Below are positions 12,476 through 47,900 of a DNA stretch of 64,000 bases, in pieces. The stretch lies in NCBI RefSeq assembly GCF_030253575.1, contig NC_080557.1:48095501-48159500 (forward strand), given 5' to 3'. Position 1 is the first letter of the stretch; each line of letters begins with the position of its first letter. Source of the DNA: Rhododendron vialii (taxonomy: Eukaryota > Streptophyta > Magnoliopsida > Ericales > Ericaceae). Position numbers and translations under genes: made by a program. The notes under the pieces are model-generated. The model was not told where the DNA came from. It did not search any database and saw only the letters and a list, made by a program, of their open reading frames with translations.

Positions 12476-13100
12476 CTACTGACGAAGTTCAGCTTTCTTC
12501 TTCTGCCAGATACGATCAAGTGCACTGTCGGCATCTCCCTGCAATAGAAATAGCCAAAAGTGTCAGAGTAGTAGGCGTGATAAAGCTTTGGCATGCAATT
12601 ATGAGGAATTATCAGTTGTCTAACGAAACAAAATTAACAGCAAAAACTGGCTTCTTTCCCACATATCTATATACCCTGTTTAAAGAGAAACATTATCTCC
12701 TACTCGTGGGATAGTTACAAGACCATATTTATACAAAAAGTTCGTAATGTCTCATCCGTTTAACATGTGATGTTCATGCCAAGACCAGGAAAAATGTAGC
12801 AAGAAGAATAACCTGAGCCCGGATGTAACCACAGAGCGCTAGAGTGGTAAATTGGCCAGTGTAGATACCATTCGCATCCAAATGTCCAACATTAATCTGC
12901 ACAGACGCGTGGTCCTTCGCTATGATTAGCCTATTTGTGGCAGAACTGCAATTGGAAGCAAAATACCAATTACGATCACCATTTCCAATAGTAACGGCCC
13001 CAGGAAAGAAAAAAAAACTGAAACCCCAAAAACTATACTTCATCACATACCATTTCCTGGGGATGTAAAGGTCCATGTTTTGCCCCTCATCATTCTGCAT
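12476..13100 (-). CDS. RPS21: 40S ribosomal protein S21 (eS21)
   Basis: A small-subunit ribosomal protein of the cytosolic ribosome. Coding exons on the minus strand are 13100-13051, 12945-12813 and 12538-12476, giving 81 residues, the normal length for plant eS21. The product starts [16 protein letters not shown], continues [20 protein letters not shown], and ends [18 protein letters not shown]. Both junctions keep the frame (AGGAAATG|GTATGT joined to TTCTGCC, and CGGGCTCAG|GTTATT joined to GGAGATGCC). The acceptor for the start-codon exon lies just upstream, at about 13122. The leader is split by an intron of about 940 bp, as is common for plant ribosomal protein genes. Confidence 0.95.
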
Positions 13101-14130
13101 CTTTGCTACGAGATTAAAAGCCCTATAGAAGATCCAACTTAATTAACAAAAGCTAAATCAGTGCATGACTCAGCAAGTTTCAGATTTGAAAATAAATATC
13201 TAAATATGTAATCACCTAAAGGAATATTATGCTAAAGAGGTACACATTTCATCCAGTTTGGTGGATCCAAACAATACCAGGGATACCACACCACAATAAT
13301 AATGGACAGCCGTCTACTACGCATGCCCATTTCTACAGCATAATCTACTACATGCAGATCGACCAATTTTCTATCCTCCTTGCATACATTTTAATTTTAT
13401 GGTACCTATACATAAACACTTCTGGCTTAAGAAGCAGTGGAGTACAAGATTCCACCCAACCAACAACCAACAACCCACATAAGAACGACATTTTGAAGAC
13501 CAAAAATATATTCCAGTTCAAAGAAGTCCAATAAGTACCCAAAGTACAACTAACTAAACTAAAGAGATTCAAGCCAGACCTCCCAAACTAGATAGATCCT
13601 AACTAGACTCGTTTCCCACTCCCCAAGCGTGACCGAAAAAGGAGAGTCGAAATCCGCATAAAGCCTTAAAGAACTGCACAACCATCAATCAATCTTCAAC
13701 TGAGAGTATAAATTATTAAACACCAAGTCCCAAACCACCCCTTCGCTACAAAACCCTCCTTCCCAATGCCAAATGAAATCACACACCGAGTCATGAAGAG
13801 GTGCTGCCCCATCCAAGGAAAAAAGGTCAATAAGTGGTCTTATAATACTGCATAGATGCAATGTTCTACGAGCCAATCGCACGTGGATTATTCCTAAGAG
13901 ATCATGCCATCTCTGCACTTATATATGTTACACGAATCCCCCAATCGACACGACAAGACACTGGTGCGGGATCTGCACCAGATCCTCCCATAAAATTCCG
14001 GACACGTTAGCTAGATGAGGAGGATGAAGAACTAAGAAGAAAGAGGAGGAAGAAGAGAGAGACCTGGACGAAGAGCTGCTGCTGCTGCTGCTGCTGCTGC
14101 TGCGATTCCTATCGTCCGAACAATAGATTC
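13101..14130 (-). other. RPS21 leader exon and first intron
   Basis: On the minus strand a CAG|GTCTCT donor at 14064 closes a non-coding first exon that carries CAG repeats. The matching acceptor is CTATAG|GG at about 13122, a short distance before the ATG. The intron (about 13123-14063) has no recognised coding content. A 77-codon frame at 13685-13918 inside it has no family resemblance that I could identify. Confidence 0.6.
14075..14103. repeat. (GCT)9 trinucleotide repeat in the RPS21 leader
   Basis: About nine GCT units, read as CAG repeats in the RPS21 transcript. They sit just upstream of the leader-intron donor. Confidence 0.85.
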
Positions 14131-15823: not shown

Positions 15824-18800
15824 ATGGCTGAAGCAACCTTTGCCCTGAACCAGCACTTCTTGTTCGGCTTATCAAACTCAAGAACAACAACGTGGCTTCC
15901 CAATAGGAAAACCCTCTTCCCATCCCAAAAGAAGCCCCCCCATCTTTCTCTCATCCGTTGCTCCTCTTCTACATCGCCGCCACCGCCGTCGTCTTCGACG
16001 GAACTTGATTCACCTACAGCGGAGTCCTGTGTCAACTTGGGTCTCTCTCTCTTCTCCAAAGGACGGGTACCCTTCAATTTATTTCTAATTCTTTACTATT
16101 AATCCTTTCCAAGTTGCAATTTTCGAAACTGGGCGGTCCTAGTTTTTTACCAATTGATGTTCTTATTGCATGAGTAAGATAATTCACAAATGGGAATAGA
16201 TAAATATTAACGAGTTCATATAAAAATAGTATAAGCACAATTGTCTTCCTCCATAAGTTTATCCATTCCAAAGGACGGGTACCCTTAAATTCTTTACGGC
16301 AATATCTTTTCCAAGTTGCAATTTTGTAAAATGGGCAGTCATAGTTTTGTGGAAATTTATGTTCTTATTGCATGAGTATGAAATGGTGGATAATGAGGAG
16401 TGGTCATGTGCATAGCACAATTCTCAAGTTGGATAGATAAATAAGAATATTAACGACTTCATACGAAAACAGTATAAGCACAAATACAATATTCTACCTC
16501 CATAAGTCTTTCGAATTCAAGTAATTAATATTGTTGTTTGAGATAGTATTGGCTGCACAAGTGCACTTCTAAATACCTCCCTAATTTCTTCATCTCGAAT
16601 TCATTAACGCCTGTTTTCAAACTACCTCTTGGTGTTGTTCAGGTAAGGAGTCAAATTTTTGATGTTCATATTTTCCTTAGAGTCAGGAAGCAAATTAATT
16701 TAACATGATAAGATCATAAGATATGATTCGAGGAGTTGTGTTTAACAATATTCCACGTAAGGATGCTGGGCTAGTGGGCTGTCATTGAACCCGTTGCAGT
16801 TGATTGTTTCCGAAGCTCTATAGTTGGGATAACAAATCGATTTTTAATGCTTTGTAAATCACAAACTTCTACGAGTTTTTAGAATTCCATCACTTGGTAG
16901 TTGTTAGTATCAGATTATCTGGACATTTGCATTGCTCTTCTAGGCTTGCAGTTTTGTGAATCATAAAGACAAACAGGTTGAAAGTTTCACTGTCCCGTGA
17001 CTCCTGAGTCCTGTCCATGACAATTGGTTTTCCAGGTCAAAGATGCTCTAGCTCAGTTTGAGACAGCACTTACTTTGGATCCTAATCCTGTGGAAGCTCA
17101 AGCTGCTCTCTACAACAAAGCCTGTTGTCATGCCTACAGGTGGCCATTCTCTGCTTTCCTTCCGATTGTGTTTTTCATTGCTTTTGCTGTGTTCCTTTGG
17201 TAAATCAGGTCTGTTGAAGTATTTTTTATACATGAGGTGATTTTGTACTCGTAAATGGGTTCATTATGGAAGGTAATGATGTAAATATGCAATAATGTCA
17301 CAAGAATTCCATGTACACGTAAAACTTGTATGATGGCCCTTTCATCAGTCTTCACCTTAGAAGCTCTCATATACTATCAGGATGCCTATATCCATATTTT
17401 CATAATTACTAGTAAATTTTTTCCTGAAAGGTACAAACCTATGGGTGCGGAAAAAATTCAGTTTGCTAAATTTGGTTTGTTGGAATGAGTGTGTTCCATG
17501 TTCTGGAATTCGTGTTCTACAGTTCTTACTGTATAAATCAGATGGGCTTTAGCATTTTCTACTAACTTTGAATCAACCCACTGGAAGGATGGGGTGCTGG
17601 TATCCTTTGGGATAGGGTCCGGCATGAGTTTTGGATCTTTTAAAGTTGGCTTGTATTTCTGCATATATGATTTCACCAGAGCAAGTAGACGTCATCGGAG
17701 CATGATCTCTCACCCCTTTCTTTCTACTGTGTCATGTCTTTGAATTCTGAATGAAAAGTTGTCATACGCTTCGCTTGGCCACAAGCTGATCAATCTTAAA
17801 TTTTTTGATTTCTTCTTTCTTTTGTTTTTCTTTTCATTTTGAGAAAGAGGGGAAGGAAAGAAAGCTGCTGAATGTCTGCGCACTGCTTTGAGAGAATATA
17901 ACCTCAAATTTGGTACAATTCTTAATGATCCAGACTTGGCCTCCTTTAGAGCTTTGCCTGAATTCAAGGAACTGCAAGAAGAGGTTGTTGCTTGATTTGA
18001 TCTTCATTATGTCTATATCTTTCTGTTGTGCATATGCTCATTTCATTAAAGCCTGTCAAGGTTATGTCATTTGATAATGCCAAGTTCACTTATCATTTTC
18101 TGTTAGGTTGTGTGTTGCACGTTGGAATAAATGTTGTCAGTTGGAACTTGAAAGTGTAGCTCAGTCGTTGAACACTTGAGTTTTAAGACATCACGTGCGG
18201 CCTCTTTTTTTATGCACAGGCTAGGCTTGGTGGGGAAGATATTGGCTACAGCTTCCGAAGAGATCTTAAACTAATTAGTGAAGTCCAAGCACCATTTCGG
18301 GGAGTTAGGAGATTTTTCTACGTTGCTCTTTCTGCAGCTGCAGGGATATCATTGTTTTTTACTGTACCTAGGCTAATACGTGCGATCCAGGGTGGCGATG
18401 ATGCTCCTGATTTATTGGCAACTGCTGAAAATGCTGCCATCAATGTTGGCGGTAAACGAAAACGCTCTTTTGCTTCCAATTATGATATTGAGACACCTTG
18501 CATATCTGTAACTAGATTTGCTGATTATTTGCATTAATTTTGTTACGGGCAACTGCTGAAAATGACTAAGCTTTTGAATCAGCAATCCTGCAGGTATTAT
18601 AATTTTCGTGGCACTGTTTTTCTGGGATAACAAGAAAGAAGAGGAACAGCTTGCTCAGATATCCCGAAATGAAACTCTATCAAGGTTGCCTTTGCGGCTC
18701 TCAACTAAACGGGTTGTTGAACTTGTTCAATTACGAGACACTGTCAGGCCTGTTAGTATCTATACTTTTTCCTTAATCAGATTCTTCATGTCTAAATGGC

Positions 18801-22463: not shown

Positions 22464-22841
22464 ATGACGAGCTCTTCTTCTTCCTTCCCCTTCTTACCAC
22501 TAGTTGTTTCTCTGGTGGTGGTCATGATCTCGTTGTCCACCGCCGGAGCAAGCGGAGGCCACCGCGAACAGGGGAGCTGGGCCGCGGTGAAACCCGGCGG
22601 ATGCCGAGGGTCGGAGTGCATCACGGGGGAGGGCGAGTTCGACGTGGATTCGGAGATCAAGAGGCGCAAGTTGTATTCGGGGTACTACATCTGTTACGAA
22701 GCGCTGCAGAGCGACTTCGTGCCGTGCTCGCAAAGGGGTCAGTCCTATTATAACTGCGACGAGGGCGCTGATGCTAACCCCTACTCCCGTAGTTGCAATG
22801 CCATTACCCAATGCCGCTCCGACTACGGTTATTATTATTAA
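22464..22841 (+). CDS. RALF peptide precursor, divergent RALF1-locus type
   Basis: RALF peptides are secreted, processed and bind FERONIA-type receptor kinases, LLG co-receptors and cell-wall LRX proteins. This single exon encodes 125 residues. Residues 1 to about 27 form a signal peptide. The propeptide has Cys47 and Cys52 and a DVDSEI stretch before the RRxL site RRKL (67-70), the S1P protease motif. The mature part keeps the four family cysteines (88, 98, 111, 117) and YYNC and ANPYSR blocks. Oddities: the receptor-binding YISY is YICY (75-78), adding a fifth cysteine; the mature part has six acidic and only three basic residues; and the C-terminus is extended by DYGYYY. Canonical RALF1 is strongly basic. 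Its position beside LPA1 matches Arabidopsis RALF1. Confidence 0.9.
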   Translation: MTSSSSSFPFLPLVVSLVVVMISLSTAGASGGHREQGSWAAVKPGGCRGSECITGEGEFDVDSEIKRRKLYSGYYICYEALQSDFVPCSQRGQSYYNCDEGADANPYSRSCNAITQCRSDYGYYY

Positions 22842-23113
22842 GTCAACGGTTTAATGCCCTCTTTTTGGTTCAAAATGTTTTTCGGTTTTTTTTTTTTTTT
22901 TTTTAAGTCCTCGGGGTTTTCCCTGTATTTCTCTTCTACTTGCAGCAAATAAGCCAGCAATGTAATGAGTTGAATTGATTCAACGATTGTCCTTTTATAG
23001 ATTTGCAATTGTGATAGCCAAAAAAATGTGGCTTTTGTGAACCGTATATTTTTCTCAGTTTAGTTTTTAGAAGAATGTTATCAAATTATATAGAGTCATA
23101 GACAAGTGAGTTA

Positions 23114-23358
23114 CTCCCTCCGTCCCGGTTTGTTTGTCTCCTTTTTGATTTTTTGAGAGCGTTTGACCTCTCAAAGAATTAACTATAATTTTCAATTCGT
23201 AATATTTTTAATATGCAATATGAATCTTATTTGATAAATCTTAATTAGTTTTATTATACAAAATCTTCAAAAAAAAAAATTATAAAATGTAAGATATAAG
23301 TATATTTTTGAAAGACACGTATTTCGACAATTGGACAAATAAATTGGGACGGAGGGAG
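23114..23358. mobile_element. Stowaway MITE, well preserved
   Basis: A 245-bp element begins CTCCCTCCGTCCCGGTTT and ends in the inverted terminus TTGGGACGGAGGGAG. It is flanked by TA at 23112-23113 and 23359-23360. The A+T-rich interior has no coding capacity. This is the classic Tc1/mariner-derived form, about 270 bp after the RALF stop codon. Confidence 0.9.
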
Positions 23359-23421
23359 TATGAGATTATATGGATCTCAAGATCAATCAAGATGGCACGT
23401 AAGGAGGCCTACAACTTGGTT

Positions 23422-23739
23422 TGCGGGATCTACTTCGGTCTCGCTCCGATGATCGAAAACATTCATTTCGTAGAGCTCGTCAAGTAGAACCATCATGTGT
23501 AAAATCAGTTCGATTGGATATCATTAAATGTCTGATCGAAACATTTTTATTTTGAAAATAATGGATCCGGAAAATACTGGATCAAATCCTCTGGATTCCA
23601 TTATTGGCAAGTTGTATGTGTTCAGATTAGGTACTTAATGATATCCGATCAAGCTGATTATTCGCATGATTTTCTTCTCGACGAGCTCTTCGAAGTAAAC
23701 GTTTGCGATCATCGGAGCGAGACCTGAGAGGGCCCCGCA
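23422..23739. mobile_element. Foldback MITE with 105-bp arms
   Basis: The left arm contains GGTCTCGCTCCGATGATCG and the right arm its exact complement (CGATCATCGGAGCGAGACC, 23706-23724). The match continues inward with GAGCTCGTC and GATATCATTAA blocks and outward to GCGGG and CCCGC. It lies directly before the LPA1 exon fragment. The superfamily was not determined. Confidence 0.8.
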
Positions 23740-23803
23740 AGGCCGGGACATCACCGTGCCGTCCCTTGGAGGGCACAGCACGGCCCCTCATTTCAGACAC
23801 TGA

Positions 23804-35600: not shown

Positions 35601-38600
35601 GTCGGTCAAAAAGACCCAAAAATTTAGGCCAAAGGCAGTCTTACCATTGCTTTCAAATTGCTTCATGTGGGCTTACTGAATGTTTGCACATCATTACTCC
35701 TTTGGAGGACATATCAAGTTTCCCTTAAACACATTCATTAGATTTTCCAGCAACTTGTGAATGATGATTTAGCTGCTGCTGGTGTGCCACCTTCATTGAG
35801 CATATTAGAATCCCATGGTGCTCCAATGAAGGGATTGCACTTTGAAACAAGATCTGGAGATGCTTCAGCTGTTGCAGGAGCATCAATTTTAGCATCTTTG
35901 TCAAATCTCCGAAAAGAGTTGTCTGTCCATCCACGTAACGAGGAGGATGTGCAACAAGGTTCTGAAATGCCTACATTACCTTCTGCTTGTGAAGCGCCTG
36001 ATAATTGTACTCTGGATGCTGAAATGAAGGATACTTCTGATCATGATGATGGGGCTGGGAGTGTTAAAGATGTTCCATCTTCTGACGCTGCTATTGAAAA
36101 CATGAATCTTGATAACATACTGGATTTTTCGGGGGATGCAGATATTGGGAAGGTCCCTGGAGGAACTCATGAATTAAGACCACTTATGCGGATGCTTGCA
36201 CGTTCACCTGCTGGAAGTATTGCTAAAGTACTCGATGAGCAAAGGGGAATCACAGAACTTCTCAAGGGGTTTGATACTCCAATTTTGGCAGCGACTAGGC
36301 GGCAAGAATTTAAAGATGGGTTACAACAAGGAATCCTCAGCGCCAGCAACATTGAAGTTTCATTTGAAGACTTCCCATATTATTTAAGGTGCAAAACTGG
36401 GCTCACTGTGTTAGGTGTCAGCAAATCTTGCATTTCTTGTTATATTTATCCTGATTGCTTTGTTGCGATTTTGTTGTGCTTTCTAGTCTCATGCAACTGT
36501 CTCTGTGGTTTCAAATAGGTTGTATAGGTGGATATATTTTAACCATCTCATGCCGGCTTTTTTGGTTTTGTGGTACCTTTTATTGCTGAAGCATGCTGAC
36601 TAGTTTGATATCAGGACATGGCACTCCAGTTTATGCTAAGTATTTATCTTTCTAGGCATGTGATGATAATAAATCTTGATAGGTTATTTTCTACCTACGA
36701 TGAAGTGATTTTCCTTCCAGTAAAACTGAAAAATCAAGTAATGACTCTAGGGGCATGGATTGCCATTTGAGATTCCGTAATAGAAGTGCCAATGATATTT
36801 TGAGTGCCTCTTAGCACACTTGCTCGAAAATATATGGCTGTTTTGTGTAGGTATATGATGTAATGTTAAGATGATAGAACAGATCTCTCGCATTTTTACT
36901 CTTGTGATTCAGGTGATGTCATCCTTGGTCATAGAGACAAAACCAGGGAATTTTGCTTACATGGGCTTCTCTTTTCTGTTTTATGGTATTGTAATAGTTT
37001 AAGGTTTTGCAATACCCAATTTTATTCCCACTTTTATGCTATTTCAGATTTAAGCATAGCTGTATTTTATACTTCTGTTTCAAACCAGATAAGGTCTGGT
37101 AGCCCATTTGGTGTCTTGATGCAGAGGGTGTAAAATATAGTATGTCAGAATTCGCTATGATAATCAATAATTGGTAAAACAATTGATAAATAGCTAAGGA
37201 TCAATATGGTGAGGTCATGTTAATAAGTATCACGTCCTCAGTGTCTATGCTGCTTAGCTTTCTTGGCATTCTTGCTTTCTTAACAACTTAAGCTTTTGGG
37301 ACTAGTGGTGCTCTAAACATGGTATTAGAGCTCACGTCGAGGGATGCCTTGGTTTCAAGTCTCTGTCTGCATTGATCTCTTATTGGAATGTGATTCTCCC
37401 GTCTTTGGATAATGGAATCTACACTTGCAAGTTATGCACAATGTTAGAGATCGAGATATCTATAGTATGTGATATGCATTGTTTTATCCCTATCATCCCA
37501 GTTTAAGATTTTCAGATTAGTGGTGCTCTGACAAAATATTTAATGGTCTTATAGTTCGTAAATTTTGTGCATGACAGTGCTTGCTCAAGTAGGCTTGGAT
37601 CTAAGGTTGTTATGACTTCGGTTTTCTGTTTTATTATTTTTGTCCTTATGTCCATTTGTGCACTGTTTTTGAAACTTTGGCTATCTGTCCTTTCTGCATG
37701 TTACCTTCGTTGTTTTTAGAAGACTTAGATGCGTGTCTCAGACCTGTGATGTGTTCTCTTGTCAGAGCACCACTAATCCCAAAATCTTAAACTGGGATTA
37801 TAGGGATGAAACAATGCATATCACATACTATAGATATCTCGATCTCTAGTAGCTTCTATTGTGCATAACTTGCAATTAGATTCCATTATCCAAAGACGGA
37901 GAGAATCACATGCCAATAAGAGATCAATGCAGACAGAGACTTGAAATCAAGGCAACTCTCGACGTGAGCTCTGATACCATGTTTAGAGCACACTAGTCCC
38001 AAAAGCTTAAGTTGTTAGGAAAGCAAGAAAGCTAAGAAGCATAGACACTGAGGACGTGATACTTATTAACATGACCTCGCCATATTGATCCTTAGCTATT
38101 TATCAATTGTTTTACCAATTATTGATTATCATAGAAAATTCTGACATACTATACTTTACACCCTCTGCATCAAGACACCAAATGGGCTGTCTTATAGTTC
38201 ATAAATTTTGTCCATGACAGTGCACAAGTAGGCTTGGATCTTAGGTTGTTATGACTTCTGTTTTGTTATTTTTGTCCATTTGTACACTGTTTTTGAAACT
38301 TTGGCAGTTTGTCTGTCCTTTCTGCATGGTACCTTCGTTGTTCTTAGAATACTTAGATGCATGCCTCAGACCTGTGATGTATTCTCTTCATTATCAGTTA
38401 GAATGTACCACATACTTTTTGTCGATAGATATTGATTGTATCTTTCTGCTGAACTTTTTCTGGAACGATGTATTTGTCAAGGGACTATCTATAACGAGGA
38501 TTGTTGTTAGATATGATACTGTTGTGTGAACTGTTTCTTCTGATTGCCATGATTTGAATCCCTGTCCATGTCAATTTGTGTTAAGTGTTTTCTAGGACAT

Positions 38601-44900: not shown

Positions 44901-47900
44901 GTGGTTACTGAGAATGAATTTGAGAAGAGGCTGCTTGCGGATGTTATTCCGCCAAGTGATATTGGGGTTACTTTTGATGACATTGGGGCATTAGAGAATG
45001 TGAAGGATACATTGAAGGAATTGGTCATGCTACCTCTTCAGAGGCCGGAATTATTTTGTAAAGGACAGCTGACAAAGGTTAAATCACTTATATATTTCAT
45101 TGCTTCCCTTTCAATTTACAAATTGGTGTTAGGTTTGAGGTAGTTTATTTTAGTTTTTCTAGTTCTGATAAGATACTGTCATCAGCCTTGCAAGGGAATA
45201 CTCCTTTTTGGCCCACCTGGTACTGGAAAAACAATGCTTGCTAAAGCTGTTGCAACTGAGGCTGGTGCAAACTTTATCAACATATCAATGTCCAGCATTA
45301 CCTCCAAGGTACTTCTCGAGTTTAACGGACAAGTTGCTGTTCTCTCTGCATGTGCTTCCTTCAGAATATAATCGGCATGTTTATTGATGACAGTGGTTTG
45401 GAGAAGGTGAGAAGTATGTAAAAGCAGTGTTCTCACTAGCTAGTAAAATTGCTCCCAGTGTTGTTTTCGTCGATGAGGTTGGTTAAATAACTTAGCAGTC
45501 ATTTTGATTGCTTGCTGTTGCTCTTTATCATTTGTGTTTTAAATTAGGACTTCTTTGTTTCCAATCTGTTTTCTCGTGTCTTTTCCTGTAACTATAGGGG
45601 ATTAGTTTCTACTATATTATCTACTAGTGTAGCTTCCAGTGATGATTAAAGTTCATTTCTTGTAATTGTACAGTGTAACTCTCCTACCATCCCCTTTCTG
45701 AAGTCTTCCCCCTTGCCCATTCTCTGTTTTAGGTTGACAGCATGTTAGGAAGACGTGAAAATCCTGGAGAACATGAAGCCATGCGCAAAATGAAGAATGA
45801 GTTTATGGTGAACTGGGATGGTCTGCGTACAAAGGATAAGGAACGCGTACTGGTACTTGCTGCCACCAATAGACCTTTTGACCTTGATGAGGCAGTTATC
45901 AGGAGACTGCCCCGGAGGTAAATACATGCTTTCTTTAGTTTGTGTCTTTCATTAGAAGTCTGTTTGTTAATGATTTTAAGTTCACATTTGGTGCAGATTG
46001 ATGGTAAACTTGCCAGATTCGCCGAACAGAGAGAAAATTCTCAGAGTTGTATTGGCTAAAGAAGAATTGACACCTGATGTTGATCTTGAAGTAGTTGCTA
46101 ATATGACTGATGGTTATTCAGGAAGTGACTTGAAGGTTGCTTACTAATTTCGTCGTAATCTGCAATTTTTTGCCCCGTGTTTTTAATCTTTTCAAACTTG
46201 GTTTTATGTAGTTCCTCTGATTAACTTTTTGGTTGCAGAATCTTTGTGTGACAGCAGCCCATTGTCCCATACGAGAAATTTTGGAGAAGGAAAAGAAGGT
46301 TAGTCGGATATATGAATAACTTACGAACGCCAATGTCCTTTCAGTATATTTGCTTTTGGGAGTTTCTGCTTGCAAACCAGCTTGTTCAAAGTTCCTTAAA
46401 GTTTCCATTGCAATAAACCATTTAGGTTTGGCATGTTTGATGAATCAGTTAATTTATTTCTGTAGGAGCAAAAATCCACTGCATGTTACATTTATATTTG
46501 CATACAGGTTGTCTGTTGACTCTGTTCTCTGAAGTGCATGCTATTTCCGTACAAGGGTATGCCAGTTGATGCTTTTGGAGATGAAATGTTCTTAAATTCT
46601 TGTGTCTGATTTGGACACATTCCATCGTTACTTGATCAAACATTAGTAGTACTCAGATATATTTGATAGTAATACAAAAGAATGCTTAAATCATGTAGCT
46701 ATAGCTCGTCAAATGGAATTGATAGTCTGTAGATTATAAGGAATCTGTGAAGAGTGGCCCCTGTTCATGAATGCTTGCATATTTGAGTCATGAATTTTGG
46801 GCAATTATAATTGAACATGGTTTCTTGGGCTCACTGTTGAGGACAGGGAGAGATAAAGGCAAAAAATAAGATAGAAGGGGATGGCATTGATTGCCCACGC
46901 TGAACAGGTGAAGCAAGTTTACATCTGAAGGGGAGAGATTTTAGTTAGCACGATCCATTATATGGTAATGTATCAAGGAGGGGTAAGAGTAGAGGGAGGT
47001 AGAGAAGGGGATGGATGTTTGTTGCCCTTGGATATTGGCTTATTTATGTTCTCTACTATTTTTTAGGGTTTTGAGCTGGTGCAGTGGTCGGTTTTTCTTC
47101 CTCCCGTATCTCTTAGTTTAAATGTTCTGAACTTGCTTAAAATTAGTACTTGTGTTGGGTCTAAGTCATTTGGTTATCACTTGGATAATAGGAAAACTTG
47201 TTACCGAGAGCTGAATTCTTGCCTTGTTAAGAAACATCCCTATTTTCTTGAACTGAATTTATGTCTTGTGGAGCAGCATTACTCTTCTTCTCCACCATTT
47301 TTTGTTGCAGACTGTTCCTTTCAATTAATAGCCTTTATGGCTAATGTTGTGGTTCACAGTTGGTAAAATGAATCCAGTCTTACAGATAAGCCATTTGTGC
47401 TTATTACTCTTCCCCATGAAAATCAGTTCTTCTCGTAGGTTATAAGATAGGATGTTAATGATGTTGCCTTATGTGCCCTAATTTTCATAAGCAATTTCTT
47501 CAGGTCGCTTTTATTCTTTTATGATAAATCAAGTTGAACTGAATTTTAACTCACTTATGCTGGTATTTATATATAGGACTGAATGCACTTTACGCAACAG
47601 ATAGGATTTTGGTTTACGAAGTTATGGTTTTGGGTACAACATATATTTATGTTTGTCTCCTTTAATCTATGAATATGACAATATATTTTCTCCAATTTTA
47701 GGAGAAAGCTCTGGCATTGGCAGACAACAGACCGTTACCTGCTCTGCATTCCAGTACTGATGTTCGCCCTTTAAACACTGAGGATTTTAAATATGCACAT
47801 GAACAGGTATGATAAATGGAACTGAAAATTTGCAATTGTCCTAGTATTTCTTTCCTTGTGTGTTGATTTTACTGGGTTTTCTGCTGACCAAAGTCAATGA

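Follow-up and report, generated by a model that had tools for sequence, protein, structure and literature searches.

Within a 64,000-nucleotide stretch of the Rhododendron vialii genome (the window), we identified an intact single-exon open reading frame at 22464-22841 (+) that encodes a RALF precursor of 125 amino acids, whose predicted mature peptide is net acidic and whose coding sequence carries a signal of constraint. Our tentative reading, to which we give a probability of roughly 0.4, is that this is a maintained RALF1-type gene whose product may be a mobile RALF uncoupled from pectin, acting on LRX proteins and/or LLG-FER and tuning, or competing with, the basic RALFs. The peptide may be a natural counterpart of a laboratory peptide made to test the link between charge and pectin.

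A RALF precursor at the RALF1 position

The open reading frame matches the RALF domain PF05498 with 73.2 bits against a cut-off of 22, and comprises the following parts (window coordinates, strand, feature):

22464..22841, +, coding sequence of the RALF precursor, 125 aa, single exon (open reading frame; PF05498 at 3.5e-20)
22464..22553, +, probable signal peptide, residues about 1-30 (hydrophobic N-terminus judged by eye)
22554..22673, +, prodomain with Cys47/Cys52 (CRGSEC) and an acidic GEFDVDSE stretch (sequence, alignment)
22662..22673, +, RRKL, predicted S1P-type RRxL cleavage site, residues 67-70 (motif)
22674..22838, +, predicted mature peptide, residues 71-125, 55 aa, net -3, pI 4.23 (sequence)
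22686..22697, +, YICY at the YISY position, including Cys77 (Ser in the 10 other aligned precursors)
22746..22751, +, Tyr95-Tyr96, the tyrosine pair (YY) for which LRX binding is predicted in RALF4/RALF23 (alignment; PMC13373830)
22755..22784, +, acidic loop CDEGADANPY, CKKRRRNNPY in RALF4 (alignment to 6qwn_F)
22821..22838, +, C-terminal tail DYGYYY, which contains DY (absent from the 15 other RALFs read)

The mature region holds four aspartates and two glutamates, i.e. six acidic residues, and three arginines as its basic residues, with no lysine or histidine. It has five cysteines (77, 88, 98, 111 and 117), of which C88, C98, C111 and C117 are the four spaced framework cysteines and C77 is extra, Cys47 and Cys52 being two further ones in the prodomain. 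At the YISY position both tyrosines and the isoleucine are retained and the serine is replaced. A recount of the sequence agrees with the sequence-only reading, which had listed six acidic and three basic residues, no lysine, YICY, Cys77 and DYGYYY. The prodomain cysteine pair is also present in the six nearest paralogues, where the counterpart of CRGSEC is CRGTIGEC, CRGSIGEC or CRGTIAEC, and RRxL is described as a feature of the RALF family (PMC9113046, among others).

When the window gene is aligned with ten paralogues (11 proteins), 23 columns are invariant, including both arginines and the leucine of RRxL, I76, Y78, L81, the four framework cysteines and Y95-Y96. At S77 and G110 the window gene is the sole departure (S77C, G110S), and G110S, which replaces a glycine retained in the 10 other aligned precursors, could be harmful to the fold. 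In RALF23 the YY pair is required for retention in the wall, and the tyrosines of YISY are part of LLG-FER signalling (PMC13373830).

That the gene sits at the RALF1 position, as had been proposed from the letters, is borne out by its two neighbours:

18187..18534, +, LPA1 exon, the locus-defining neighbour (PF11998, 5.1e-22)
45144..45918, +, AAA ATPase exons, the downstream neighbour (PF00004)

The LPA1 exon lies about 4 kb upstream of the RALF gene and, since RALF1 (AT1G02900) and LPA1 (At1g02910) have adjoining locus numbers, the LPA1 neighbour in the window supports the assignment. We take AT1G02890, the next Arabidopsis gene, to be an AAA ATPase. An open reading frame at 35742-36518, which has no Pfam match, was assigned by eye to the same AAA ATPase gene of the window. 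Throughout the genome there are three matches to the LPA1 domain, and only the one in the window has a listed RALF close by (in the next nearest pair, about 0.7 Mb separates the two); among these three and the two AAA matches, none is near the RALF genes on C10 and C13. Nor did a DNA search of the genome reveal a recent duplicate of the window RALF: apart from the gene itself, it returned weak hits on C13b and C10b. Genes with TSPO and LSM domains also lie within the window, as does a ribosomal protein S21e exon (12777-13142, -) between a FolD-type gene and LPA1. Just downstream of the RALF gene there are two inverted-repeat elements, one at 23112-23360 with 27-nt inverted ends carrying CTCCCTCCGTCCC, which is presumably Stowaway-like, and a long one at 23421-23740. 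Rfam at gathering scores gave no match in the window, and a search for relatives in viral contigs yielded 25 pattern matches and no confirmed one.

Charge within the RALF family of the genome

The predicted mature peptide has a pI of 4.23 and a charge of -3.3 at pH 7 and -2.7 at pH 5.5. The mature peptides of the RALF1 type are strongly basic and this one, at net -3, is not, so we file it by homology as a divergent RALF and not as a typical RALF1. A PF05498 search of the genome (532,647,506 bases in 13 contigs, with the window at C1:48095501-48159500) located RALF domains in at least 22 places, and 28 candidates were scored. Among the 21 charge-scored of the 22 RALF-domain matches found, the window RALF is the sole net-acidic one. 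In a set of 16 readings it stands at -3 and the 15 others at +2 to +11, counted over readings that are not all whole genes: the C8 and C2 copies (+4 and +3) lack an in-frame start and include residues of GA repeats, and C13ex was read solely from within its frame. Five further partial or atypical stretches range from +3 to +7, and the 22nd match, C4:38425649, has a stop inside and was left out of charge scoring. The C4 match and the C8 and C2 copies (C8:31139446, C2:47304564) are near-identical fragments without an in-frame start on three chromosomes, the latter two running into GA repeats, and perhaps represent a dispersed piece of RALF carried by a mobile element.

A check for canonical paralogues found basic RALF1-like genes with YISY elsewhere in the genome, namely C7 (+8) and C5 (+6). 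The nearest kin of the window RALF are four other YISY genes, the tandem pairs C13a/C10a and C13b/C10b, with charges of +2 to +4. A DNA tree of seven chosen genes groups the window gene with these pairs against C7/C5 with a support of 100/99, its exact place inside the tree being weak (57/68), and a protein tree of 15 rows recovers the grouping with the pairs at only 38/54. The two tandem pairs lie inside a segmental duplication (C13:1.310-1.315 Mb and C10:2.720-2.725 Mb), pieces of which are 78-92% alike across about 12 kb, with a coding dS of about 0.06-0.07.

By one and the same count, net charge is +9 for AtRALF1, -1 for the synthetic RALF1-KR, -2 for the 49-residue core of the window peptide and -3 for its full 55 residues. 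At the eight positions altered in RALF1-KR, a basic residue is kept at two in the window gene, C13a and C10a, at four in C13b and C10b, at five in C5 and at six in C7. The window gene lacks six of these basic positions, retaining Arg at mature positions 21 and 39, and shows newly acquired acidic residues at mature positions 9, 29, 30 and 33 as well as in the tail; Asp at mature position 14 is common to it, C13b and C10b. This distribution suggests that basic residues were probably lost first in the low-charge subclade, before the window gene turned acidic, with parallel loss also possible. In codon simulations started from the nearest relatives (2000 runs each, with a matched number of amino-acid changes and 24 shared sites kept constant), the core reached a charge of -2 or below with a probability of 0.0175 from C13a and 0.014 from C13b, and five or more acids arose in 2.7% and 5.3% of runs, respectively. 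The acidity of the core is mildly unexpected by chance.

In the relevant passages of two open-licence papers among those found for acidic, anionic, negatively charged or uncharged RALFs or acidic pI, there is no description of a natural acidic RALF; one phrase there calls RALF1 negatively charged, which looks like a slip. A search of the open-licence literature for YICY together with RALF found no paper. RALF precursors of low pI have already been published, such as BnRALF24 at 5.61, for which the available part of the paper gives no pI of the mature peptide (PMC9113046).

Predicted loss of pectin binding

In RALF1-KR, joint replacement of eight basic positions abolished oligogalacturonide binding and activity: the peptide had no root effect, and FER endocytosis and growth effects were lost, with its authors noting that other effects of the replacements could not be excluded (PMC11449480). 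Similarly, Arg-to-Ala versions of RALF4/22 disrupted pectin condensates (PMC11240277). By analogy with these engineered peptides the window RALF should be blind to de-methylesterified pectin, since a peptide that has lost its cationic surface should not bind it. The sequence-only reading had offered altered binding of pectin or receptors, antagonism and a Cys77-linked dimer as possible consequences of the unusual composition, and it is partly supported: the comparison, in which six of the eight RALF1-KR positions are non-basic and acids have been added, argues for altered pectin binding, a changed receptor interaction or an antagonist role is possible, and the dimer found no backing beyond the odd cysteine (see below).

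From these lost and kept features we infer the following course of events. The precursor would enter the secretory pathway, be cleaved at RRKL and fold with the four framework cysteines. Having exchanged its cationic surface for a partly acidic one, the mature peptide would neither bind nor condense de-methylesterified pectin. The retained YIxY helix would serve contact with LLG-FER and the retained YY pair contact with LRX proteins, and most likely a mobile peptide would take up LRX and/or LLG-FER sites and in this way tune or compete with the basic RALFs. With the LRX and LLG motifs kept in an apparently constrained gene, the guess we favour is a mobile competitor or modulator. Several points speak against this reading. 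The YISY kin C13a and C10a lack the same six basic positions and yet have a charge of +2, so the window gene shares this loss with other genes. RALF1-KR also alters positions 21 and 39, which are Arg in the window RALF. Furthermore, the excess of change in the window gene is not significant against C13b, and its omega comes from an in-house model with long branches.

It is somewhat unlikely that net charge has simply become less important in this lineage and that the peptide is an ordinary agonist, signalling through LLG-FER like its low-charge YISY kin. Such an agonist would account for the retention of YIxY, L81 and the four cysteines and for the persistence of a low-charge subclade of four sister genes, and position 3 of YISY is variable (S, G, N, D) in Brassica napus RALFs (PMC9113046); however, the loss of FER endocytosis and growth effects in RALF1-KR (PMC11449480) argues against it, as do the acids that the window gene adds beyond those of its kin.

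Constraint and rates of change

Branch omega for the window gene, estimated with an in-house codon model (seven genes, fixed topology, long branches, not cross-checked against PAML), was 0.16 over the secreted region and 0.22 over the mature region, in neither case different from the rest of the tree (p=0.78 and 0.53, respectively). An omega of 1 was rejected for the window branch in both the secreted (p=0.002) and the mature part (p=0.016). For the prodomain taken by itself it could not be rejected (p=0.068). The six other genes lie at large synonymous distances from the window gene (0.57 to 3.0). Relaxed constraint, which the sequence-only reading had named as a possible objection, was not seen, the in-house model giving a purifying signal instead. 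In relative-rate comparisons of the mature part, amino-acid changes were 9 v 0 (p=0.004; outgroup C7) and 8 v 0 (p=0.008) against C13a, and 8 v 4 (p=0.39) and 7 v 4 (p=0.55), a non-significant excess, against C13b, and in the prodomain there was no concentration of changes (1 v 2 against C13a, outgroup C7). The overall picture is of a gene that seems to be under constraint and carries an uneven surplus of changes.

These results bear on the idea that the basic copies C7 and C5 do the work and that the window gene is a degenerating paralogue drifting to loss, which we regard as unlikely. Degeneration would fit the long end branch of the window gene in the 15-row protein tree (0.86, i.e. 2.6 times the median of 0.33, though C9a at 1.14 and C9b at 1.76 are longer), its sole departures at two near-invariant positions (S77C, G110S) and its new 3' end. 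Against this, an omega of 1 is rejected, the frame, cleavage site and cysteines are intact, and third-position G+C is 0.71, like that of the sister genes (0.70-0.73).

The tyrosine-rich tail and the fifth cysteine

The DYGYYY tail is absent from the 15 other RALF readings, and none of them (0/15) has the dipeptide DY, which the window RALF has at D120-Y121. The tail also has a Y-G-Y triplet, of the kind that is cross-linked in extensins. Sulfated peptides of plants, GLV9 excepted, conserve DY as their sulfation motif, and CIF3 and CIF4 start with DYG; the TPST section of the same paper lists four families of sulfated peptides plus XAPs, with RALF not among them (PMC11534595). As a possible sign of sulfation the tail is only suggestive, and we set sulfation aside as the main reading, since a single DY carries little weight where tyrosines are so frequent. 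Sulfation would make the window RALF a member of the TPST peptides; cross-linking would attach it covalently to LRX or extensin, in place of a hold through pectin charge. We consider it quite unlikely that the gene encodes a charge-inverted natural RALF in which pectin anchoring has been swapped for the tyrosine chemistry of the tail RSDYGYYY. A simple stop-loss origin of the tail is not supported: Ser119 is TCC, compared with AGT/AGC before the stop in the six closest relatives, and none of the downstream readings examined (three frames, each followed to its first stop or for at most 40 residues) contains DYGYYY.

Because its cysteine count is odd, the mature peptide could form a dimer, or a bond to another covalent partner, through Cys77. 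Five or more cysteines arose in 49.5% of the simulations started from C13a and 58.3% of those started from C13b, which makes Cys77 alone unremarkable, and we found nothing beyond the odd cysteine in favour of such a dimer, which we hold to be very unlikely. We give next to no credence to an assembly or sequencing error at the odd codons, as the differences are many, in frame and spread along the peptide with the RALF pattern intact, a single-codon error would leave the many others unchanged and, if this is haplotype A of R. vialii, the assembly was built from about 60x PacBio HiFi reads (PMC10338486).

Comparison with known RALF peptides

With AtRALF1 (AT1G02900) and the RALF1 type, the window RALF shares the LPA1-adjoining locus, the prepro layout, RRxL, YIxY, the four framework cysteines, YY and NPYSR, and it differs from AtRALF1 in its net charge (-3 versus +9), YICY, five cysteines, the DYGYYY tail and G110S. 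Its nearest kin, the C13a/C10a and C13b/C10b pairs, have in common with it an ITQC/ITKC ending and a low charge, whereas they have YISY, four cysteines and no tail and are still net positive. The best solved relative by sequence is RALF4 (PDB 6qwn, 6qxp and 6tme; 4.4e-12); YY is present in both, and after the second cysteine the polybasic loop CKKRRR of RALF4 stands against CDEGAD in the window RALF. We take 6qwn to be RALF4 in complex with LRX.

The coupling of RALF wall binding and receptor signalling is described as an open question, with charge-dependent differences between RALFs named as a possibility (PMC12527185), and charge has been probed with engineered peptides (PMC11449480, PMC11240277). 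We believe that the window RALF, being natural, apparently kept, stripped of most of the cationic positions and equipped with LLG and LRX motifs, could serve as a ready-made test of receptor and LRX binding without pectin, for which the four low-charge sister genes provide an evolutionary series. Its closest parallel in charge is the synthetic RALF1-KR (PMC11449480), in which basic residues are likewise replaced, R48 (mature) is kept and the pI is 4.2-4.4 by the same calculation; the window RALF differs from it in being natural, in keeping Arg21 and Arg39, in having five acids compared with two in the 49-aa core, and in YICY and the tail.
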